From positions 434,001-498,000 of the forward strand of contig JAPDRO010000020.1 in NCBI GenBank assembly GCA_030247885.1: DNA of 64,000 nucleotides, read 5' to 3'. The notes beneath the pieces were generated by a model. The model saw only the letters and a program-made list of their open reading frames with translations. It was not told the origin of the DNA and ran no database searches. Below, in pieces: positions 11,236 through 24,938 of this stretch (positions are counted from its first letter, which is position 1; each line of letters opens with the position of its first letter). This stretch comes from Taxawa tesnikishii (nom. ined.). Lineage: Eukaryota > Ascomycota > Dothideomycetes > Dothideales. A program made the translations under genes and the position numbers.

Positions 11236-11244
11236 GGTTCTGTG

Positions 11245-11296
11245 GTGCGTACATTTGTCCCCACAGCTACATAATGAATCATACTAACTGCACCAG
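11245..11296 (+). other. Spliceosomal-type intron 1 inside tRNA-Pro (52 nt)
   Basis: Starts GTGCGT, the same donor as the third intron of the glucose-6-phosphate isomerase gene in this window. It contains a perfect TACTAAC branch site at 11282-11288 and ends CACCAG. Its removal joins tRNA positions 9 and 10. The length equals the commonest mRNA intron size here (50-54 nt). Confidence 0.8.
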
Positions 11297-11323
11297 GTCT
11301 AGTGGTATGATTCTCGCTTAGGG

Positions 11324-11350
11324 CCCACCCTGAGTTTACAACTCCATGAA
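11324..11350 (+). other. Canonical tRNA intron at position 37/38 (27 nt)
   Basis: Lies at the standard place for eukaryotic nuclear tRNA introns, one base 3' of the anticodon. It contains an ACCCT stretch able to pair with the anticodon AGGG, as usual for pre-tRNA introns cut by the SEN endonuclease. Confidence 0.8.
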
Positions 11351-11359
11351 TGCGAGAGG

Positions 11360-11412
11360 GTGAGTTCCGAACTGAACATCCATCTACATTCTCAAACTGA
11401 CAGTGCGAATAG
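11360..11412 (+). other. Spliceosomal-type intron 2 inside tRNA-Pro (53 nt)
   Basis: Starts GTGAGT, contains AAACTGAC (branch site CTGAC at 11397-11401) and ends AATAG. Its removal joins the variable loop as AGGTC between the anticodon and T stems, the normal form for this tRNA. Confidence 0.8.
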
Positions 11413-11439
11413 TCCCGGATTCGATCTCCGGCAGAACCC

Positions 11440-11446
11440 TTTTTTT
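11440..11446 (+). terminator. RNA polymerase III terminator (T7)
   Basis: Seven consecutive T immediately after the tRNA discriminator base, the standard Pol III stop. This argues that the tRNA 3' end is placed correctly and that the locus is read by Pol III. Confidence 0.8.
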
Positions 11447-23949: not shown

Positions 23950-24754
23950 AGCATCAGCACCACCCACCAACCAGAAGGGGGACGCGGTCGGGGGCTCTCA
24001 AAATGCTTGGAGGTTTGTACAGCAACCAGGTGTTAGCCAAACCCCCCAGCAACGGCAGTCGAGGCTGCAGGCGAGGACCGCCAGCTACAGAACCAGGCGC
24101 CTTCGAGACGAGGCAAGGACGACCGTGCCTGAGGACTAGGAAGAAAGATGGATTTCCAATGTCGGGACGAGGTACGTGCATCTGTCGCTGTCTCGAAGTC
24201 TTGTGGCCCCTCCCTTTATGATGACCAAGAGCGATTGCTCTATAATCCCAGCTCTTCGAACTCCTCACCAATTCAACGCAGAGGCTGTCTTGAGAACACG
24301 TCCCGTCTGACTCCCATCACACGATCGCTTCACCTCCTTTCTCTCCACAATGTTTTGCTCCTTGCTGACGAGTAAAGCACAGGTTGATATCGAGACGCTG
24401 ATACCAGTGATATGCTATCTTCACATGAACTTGAGATCTCTTTATCAAAGCTACGGCCATATATGAGCGTGCCAATCCTTATCCTCCGCATTGTTCCAAT
24501 TCCTAGGTGGACAACATTCGCTTCACCGGACAGAATCGAGGTTCGACCTAGCCAACGCCGGCGCCAACTCGGCATTCCAGGATTTTTTAGTTTTTTTTGC
24601 AAATAAGCTTTGAAAACTCGGCAACTATCGCCAAATGCAACCCGATTCTTCACACGCTCTCCCGATACCAGTATCCACCTTCGCCTGCCCCTCGGAAATT
24701 GCAGCAGCAACCAAAGAACATAAAGAATATTCTTCGGACTTGTCTCGACATCTA
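23950..24754. other. Intergenic between TIM21 and the tRNA pair
   Basis: No supportable gene. It contains a T-rich stretch at about 24585-24598 after a GGTTCGACC box. I could not build a tRNA from it. Confidence 0.5.
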
Positions 24755-24851: not shown

Positions 24852-24938
24852 TCCGAAATGGTCTAGTGGCTAGGATTTGTCGCTCTCATCTCTCCCGATG
24901 GCGCCGACAAGGCCGGGGTTCAATTCCCCGTTTCGGAA
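24852..24938 (+). tRNA. tRNA-Glu(CTC) with 15-nt intron
   Basis: Acceptor TCCGAAA pairs with TTTCGGA; discriminator A. The D arm GTCTAGTGGCTAGGAT is the standard Glu form. The anticodon stem TGTCG/CGACA closes a loop with anticodon CTC; 15 bases follow A37 at the canonical intron site. The T arm is CGGGG, loop TTCAATT, CCCCG. The mature tRNA is 72 nt. No T-run follows closely, so termination is not obvious. Confidence 0.88.

Follow-up and report, generated by a model that had tools for sequence, protein, structure and literature searches.

Nuclear tRNA genes probably interrupted by spliceosomal introns in a fungal genome

At least 15 nuclear tRNA genes of this genome, with ten anticodons including Pro(AGG), carry mRNA-type inserts, of which we describe 21. 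In all likelihood these are functional RNA polymerase III (Pol III) genes interrupted by U2-type spliceosomal introns, a reading drawn from sequence comparison. The anatomy of the genes, the splice signals of their inserts, the comparison with paralogues and the failure to find any intact Pro(AGG) gene are direct observations.

The tRNA-Pro(AGG) gene of the window and its copies

The closest named matches to one protein encoded in the window come from Dothideomycetes (Dothideomycetes sp. NU459, 59%; Cryomyces antarcticus, 54%), which makes a dothideomycete the probable host. The window, the whole 64-kb stretch of DNA analysed, contains one interrupted tRNA-Pro(AGG) gene at 11236‒11439 (L033, contig C13). 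Removal of three inserts of 52, 27 and 53 nt at sites 9/10, 37/38 and 46/47 leaves exons of 9, 27, 9 and 27 nt, which join to a 72-nt tRNA-Pro(AGG) with the coordinates and lengths given in the original prediction. ARAGORN reports the joined RNA as tRNA-Pro(agg) [1,72], and the acceptor, anticodon and T stems are full. The original prediction also described the GTGCGT and GTGAGT donors of the outer inserts, their TACTAAC and CTGAC elements, their CAG and TAG ends and the T7 run behind the gene, and all of these are present. The unspliced gene gives no tRNA in ARAGORN, even with introns allowed. Its features, all on the + strand, are as follows.

11200‒11224, +: AT-rich, TATA-like stretch upstream of exon 1 (sequence reading)
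11236‒11244, +: exon 1, tRNA-Pro(AGG) positions 1‒9 (ARAGORN on joined exons)
11245‒11296, +: intron 1, 52 nt, GTGCGT..TACTAAC..CAG, site 9/10 (same site in L030, L035 and L037)
11282‒11288, +: branch-site-like TACTAAC of intron 1 (sequence reading)
11295‒11305, +: A-box-like AGGTCTAGTGG, remade over the border of intron 1 and exon 2, which we take to fit the A-box consensus (sequence reading; putative function)
11297‒11323, +: exon 2, D arm and 5′ anticodon arm, anticodon AGG (ARAGORN on joined exons)
11324‒11350, +: ordinary tRNA intron of SEN type, 27 nt, site 37/38 (sequence and ARAGORN)
11351‒11359, +: exon 3, 3′ anticodon arm and start of the variable loop (ARAGORN on joined exons)
11360‒11412, +: intron 3, 53 nt, GTGAGT..CTGAC..TAG, site 46/47 (same site in L030, L035 and L037)
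11397‒11401, +: branch-site-like CTGAC of intron 3 (sequence reading)
11413‒11439, +: exon 4, T arm with the B-box-like GATTCGATCTC (presumably fitting the B-box consensus), 3′ acceptor strand and discriminator (sequence and ARAGORN)
11440‒11446, +: T7 run, Pol III terminator-like (sequence reading)

The window also contains an ordinary tRNA gene at 24852‒24938 (+), taken as Glu(CTC) from its similarity to other loci and with a 37/38 intron.

The whole window was scanned by removing each intron-like segment (G[T/C]NNG..branch..YAG, 48‒60 nt) singly and in pairs, under rules fixed after the introns were already known. The 125 variants from both strands gave a single tRNA match, the Pro(AGG) gene, which ARAGORN labelled Ser(aga) while the 37/38 intron was left in; the 88 variants of two reversed control sequences gave none. 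Exon 2 with its preceding G (28 nt, up to three mismatches) matched once in the window and in none of 100 shuffles.

Across the 29.4-Mb assembly, the exon-2 pattern (up to three mismatches) occurs at nine places, namely four Pro(AGG), four Pro(TGG) and one Pro(CGG). All four Pro(AGG) loci, on C13, C12, C31 and C1, have inserts at the identical three sites, and the five Pro(TGG) and Pro(CGG) genes have an insert near 37/38 only. An exon-4 pattern (up to two mismatches) returned the same four Pro(AGG) loci and one further place on C7, which was rejected as unrelated DNA and not a tRNA gene. Neither pattern search of the assembly found an intact Pro(AGG) copy of the kind that would speak against the original prediction; the only Pro(AGG) genes among their matches were the four interrupted loci. 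ARAGORN with introns allowed missed all four. The exact 28-nt exon-2 pattern had no match in viral_contigs or genome_contigs, neither of which is a fungal collection. Since CCU or CCC accounts for 130 of the 291 proline codons in nine reading frames of the window, a tRNA-Pro(AGG) should be needed.

The mature sequences of the four Pro(AGG) copies have a mean column identity of 93%, and introns at the same site are 55‒64% identical between copies, against shuffled means of 51‒58%. Four pairs of the acceptor stem are changed on both sides, a count from four sequences only; in 500 shuffles, this number of covarying pairs was reached 26 times and the covariation score twice. The C1 copy (L037) has two mismatched acceptor pairs, looks degenerate and may be dying. 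Each of the three Pro(AGG) genes outside the window has a run of five T no more than 8 bases away.

Interrupted genes of other isotypes and the signals of their inserts

Eleven further genes were found with such inserts, the position numbers outside Pro being our own reading of the cloverleaf.

Gly(CCC): one insert, site 53/54
Ala(TGC), two genes: site 19/20
Arg(CCT) on C29: insert in the D loop
Arg(CCT) on C13: two introns, in the D loop and the T loop
Ile(AAT): site 18/19
Phe(GAA): site 24/25
Leu(CAG): site 15/16
Leu(CAA): site 15/16
Leu(TAA): two introns
Gln(TTG): site 5/6 in the acceptor stem, with an exon 1 of 5 nt

The interrupted genes were located through T-arm-plus-T-run patterns and isotype patterns with targeted follow-ups, which do not amount to a census; 63 of 926 candidates were scored, and one pattern list showed 100 of its 199 matches. 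Examination covered the first 30 loci of one list and 77 tRNA-like or plausible short stretches (60 + 17), and the patterns used mostly miss T-loop introns. Before Gln(TTG) was added, the set of pieces comprised 70 with an ordinary ARAGORN call and 14 interrupted genes. ARAGORN calls were taken as evidence of presence only, since its isotype labels were wrong in several ordinary genes, where the 37/38 intron was misplaced. A third Arg(CCT) locus, L151 (C12:565960-566320), looks decayed and has remnants of intron-like inserts in its D and T arms; neither L151 nor the likewise decayed-looking L079 gave a tRNA after the intron-like segments were taken out.

The 21 inserts measure 52‒57 nt. GT is the donor in 20 and GC in one; every one of them has G as the fifth donor base and ends in YAG. 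CTRAY with its A 8‒14 nt from the end is present in 19 of the 21, compared with a mean of 0.94 and a maximum of 6 in 20,000 shuffles; the exceptions are intron 1 of the C13 Arg(CCT) gene, without CTRAY, and the Leu(CAG) intron, with TTAAC. The 20 inserts examined for this can each be cut in 2‒4 equivalent frames, and in all 20 one of these is GT/GC..AG, with GC once. Of 63 ordinary 37/38 inserts, four have a GT/GC..AG frame when the cut is shifted by up to 6 nt in either direction, which gives 13 frames per insert. An intron-like signature that demands GT and CTRAY, and that the GC-AG gene and the TTAAC gene are thus unable to match, was present in 12 of the 14 interrupted pieces but in none of 95 other tRNA-search pieces, chance T-arm matches included. 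This zero count and the controls of the removal scan led us to reject chance as an explanation.

When all cuts of 38‒74 nt were tried, the GT/GC..AG cut was not the one scored best by ARAGORN for Phe (112.8 vs 113.7), Leu(CAG) (111.7 vs 114.2) or Leu(CAA) (108.2 vs 113.4), and for these three the choice of cut is based on paralogues and signals. Among the introns that join ORFs in the window, the eight with the highest scores are 54‒69 nt long, against 52‒57 nt for the tRNA inserts; a looser set of 38 is noisy. Introner-like elements are recognised by near-identical copies at many sites, a feature sought here among the tRNA introns themselves. Mutual likeness of the 21 tRNA introns was considered and rejected, as their identity is about that of shuffled sequences: the 197 pairs at different sites have a mean identity of 0.57 (maximum 0.67), and their shuffles 0.54 (maximum 0.66).

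Group I and group II introns have a catalytic core and are usually over 200 nt long. Given the 52‒57-nt inserts and an Rfam scan of the window that returned only a snoRNA and tRNA at gathering thresholds, introns of these groups were rejected. The snoRNA, at 24214‒24314 (+), belongs to family Afu_304.

Canonical eukaryotic tRNA introns lie at site 37/38 and are cut by the SEN complex. The 27-nt middle intron of the window gene is of this type and is the only one of its three at that site; the outer introns, at 9/10 and 46/47, differ from canonical introns in site, size and sequence signals. The outer inserts could still be ectopic tRNA introns that SEN cuts at a bulge-helix-bulge (BHB), in the style of Cyanidioschyzon and archaea, their GT..AG ends being accidental. 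Such ectopic and multiple introns are reported for archaea, nucleomorphs and C. merolae in PMC4090602. However, the 4-bp central helix of a BHB was found at none of the 18 junction pairs tested (from 18 of the 21 introns), compared with 6% at random sites, and splice signals and a uniform length of 52‒57 nt are shared by all 21 inserts. We therefore rejected BHB introns for the 18 introns tested and regard this explanation as very unlikely. The spliceosomal reading of the original prediction is supported by the lack of BHB helices at the tested junctions, by the shared sites of the four Pro(AGG) loci with their signals kept, by the eleven additional genes, by alignment with intron-less paralogues for five anticodons and by the similar intron in U6.

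Intron-less paralogues exist for several of the interrupted genes. Spliced Ile(AAT) equals its paralogue over all 74 nt, and Leu(CAG) and Leu(TAA) match theirs at every position other than the 37/38 intron. Leu(CAA) additionally differs at one base of the variable arm, and Phe at two positions of the anticodon stem. Gln(TTG), read by eye, is the same as L074 outside the 37/38 intron. These matches indicate that cutting at the GT..AG ends yields a genuine tRNA, exact to the base for Ile, and that introns have been gained or lost among copies. The 5′ flanks of the five aligned pairs are largely unrelated, and the 3′ flanks have short shared stretches.

The same paralogues, for Ile, Phe, three Leu anticodons and, by eye, Gln(TTG), would fit the view that other genes supply the tRNAs and that the interrupted loci, whether pseudogenes or silent copies, have only acquired intron-like insertions; so would the decayed look of L037 and L151. 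On the other hand, two independent pattern searches gave no intact Pro(AGG), and both copies of Ala(TGC) that were found are interrupted, a third match (two mismatches) not being tRNA-like by ARAGORN. Exon pairing is moreover kept by compensatory change, while the introns have diverged nearly to shuffled identity. We consider it very unlikely that the loci are silent.

Pol III context and a proposed route of maturation

All three U6 snRNA genes found in the assembly (L038‒L040; C19:390845-390903, C23:1835706-1835764 and C33:874318-874378) have an mRNA-type intron of 51‒56 nt at one site. Spliceosomal removal of introns from a Pol III RNA is thus likely to take place in this cell already. TTTT is missing from all 21 tRNA introns (P = 0.0056 against shuffles) and from the window between 11236 and 11439, as a Pol III unit needs. 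Its frequency of 0 of 18 tRNA introns versus 6 of 38 mRNA-like introns is not significantly different (P = 0.085), and the latter set is rough and poor, the same procedure having given 13 finds on reversed DNA. Aligned on exon 1, the upstream AT profile of 14 interrupted genes is close to that of 70 genes with an ordinary ARAGORN call, apart from the 10 bases next to the exon (0.51 vs 0.60); it gave no proof of a defined motif.

In Pro(AGG), the A box is interrupted by intron 1, with over 50 bp to the next sequence resembling an A box; this may hinder the placement of TFIIIC. The AG|GT at the 3′ end of the same intron remakes an A-box-like string that TFIIIC might use.

CACGTG occurs within 80 bases upstream of 4 of the 14 interrupted genes (L030, L035, L138/L156 and L142) and of 1 of the 70 ordinary genes (P = 0.002, post hoc). 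This motif would suit transcription by Pol II, perhaps within longer non-coding RNAs that are spliced before the tRNA is released. Such an origin shares spliceosomal removal with the explanation we prefer, and the odds of the two overlap. The T7 run after the window gene and the T runs near the other three Pro(AGG) genes argue against it, as do the upstream AT profile, close to that of ordinary tRNA genes, and the lack of TTTT in the introns. Pol II transcription is accordingly an unlikely source of these RNAs.

For Pol III genes with spliceosomal introns, we infer transcription, splicing and the order of steps as follows. Pol III would start upstream of exon 1 and end at the T run. In the pre-tRNA, the spliceosome would recognise the 52‒57-nt introns by their GT(GC)NNG donors, CTRAY branch sites and YAG ends and would excise them, presumably as it does those of U6 here. 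The ends of the remade cloverleaf would then be trimmed, and the SEN complex and tRNA ligase would remove the ordinary 37/38 intron. Since the first exon of Pro(AGG) has only 9 nt and that of Gln(TTG) only 5, splicing most likely precedes cleavage of the 5′ leader by RNase P. With no uninterrupted Pro(AGG) gene found, the reading of CCU and CCC would depend on two spliceosomal events and one SEN event per Pol III transcript. The spliceosome is thus probably an obligatory enzyme of tRNA maturation in this fungus, and translation would be tied directly to its activity.

If the introns are spliced in this way, the same substrate is processed by two splicing systems, U6 is not the only Pol III transcript on which spliceosomes act, and a first exon can be defined even when it has only 5‒9 nt. 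With paralogues that differ in having or lacking an intron, the gain or loss of introns in a tiny RNA becomes directly testable.

Relation to known introns

Introns of mRNA type in the U6 snRNA genes of fission yeast were reportedly described by Tani and Ohshima in 1989 and 1991. Like the present introns, they are small, spliceosomal and located in a gene for a Pol III RNA. However, U6 is a spliceosomal RNA, whereas the genes described here specify tRNAs, have their promoter inside the gene and often contain a SEN intron as well.

Bhattacharya et al. reportedly found spliceosomal introns in the rDNA of ascomycetes and lichen fungi in 2000. Spliceosomal introns of lichen rDNA are treated as known in PMC8527467, where yeast removed them from Pol I rRNA. 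They are likewise spliceosomal introns outside Pol II genes, but they concern rRNA and Pol I, whereas the introns here concern tRNA and Pol III, with first exons of 5 and 9 nt.

The tRNA introns of archaea, nucleomorphs and Cyanidioschyzon, as covered in PMC4090602, share with ours positions outside 37/38 and the occurrence of several per tRNA, and site 53/54, used in Gly(CCC) here, is also used in some archaea. According to the same text, the introns of archaea and C. merolae need BHB-type structures and an endonuclease, whereas the inserts of this genome have spliceosomal signals and showed no BHB at the 18 junction pairs tested; the excision mechanism of the ectopic nucleomorph introns is described there as unknown. 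It further states that eukaryotic tRNA genes with an insertion in the D or T arm are for the most part regarded as pseudogenes, nucleomorphs and a red alga being the exceptions (PMC4090602). According to a review, the spliceosome has no part in tRNA splicing (PMC13149111). Among the matches listed in our search of the titles and abstract openings of open PMC papers, a scope outside which preprints and most subscription papers fall, there was no earlier report of spliceosomal introns in nuclear tRNA genes. The tRNA genes are very probably a new setting for the spliceosome. Because gene finders can miss such genes, as ARAGORN did for Pro(AGG), our guess is that other fungi seemingly lacking an isotype may have them.

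Among the other tRNA loci of this assembly, C25, C26 and C28 contain mitochondrial-type tRNA clusters of two sequence kinds, with part of the set repeated in mirrored order on C25. They possibly represent two mitochondrial genomes or an assembly artefact.
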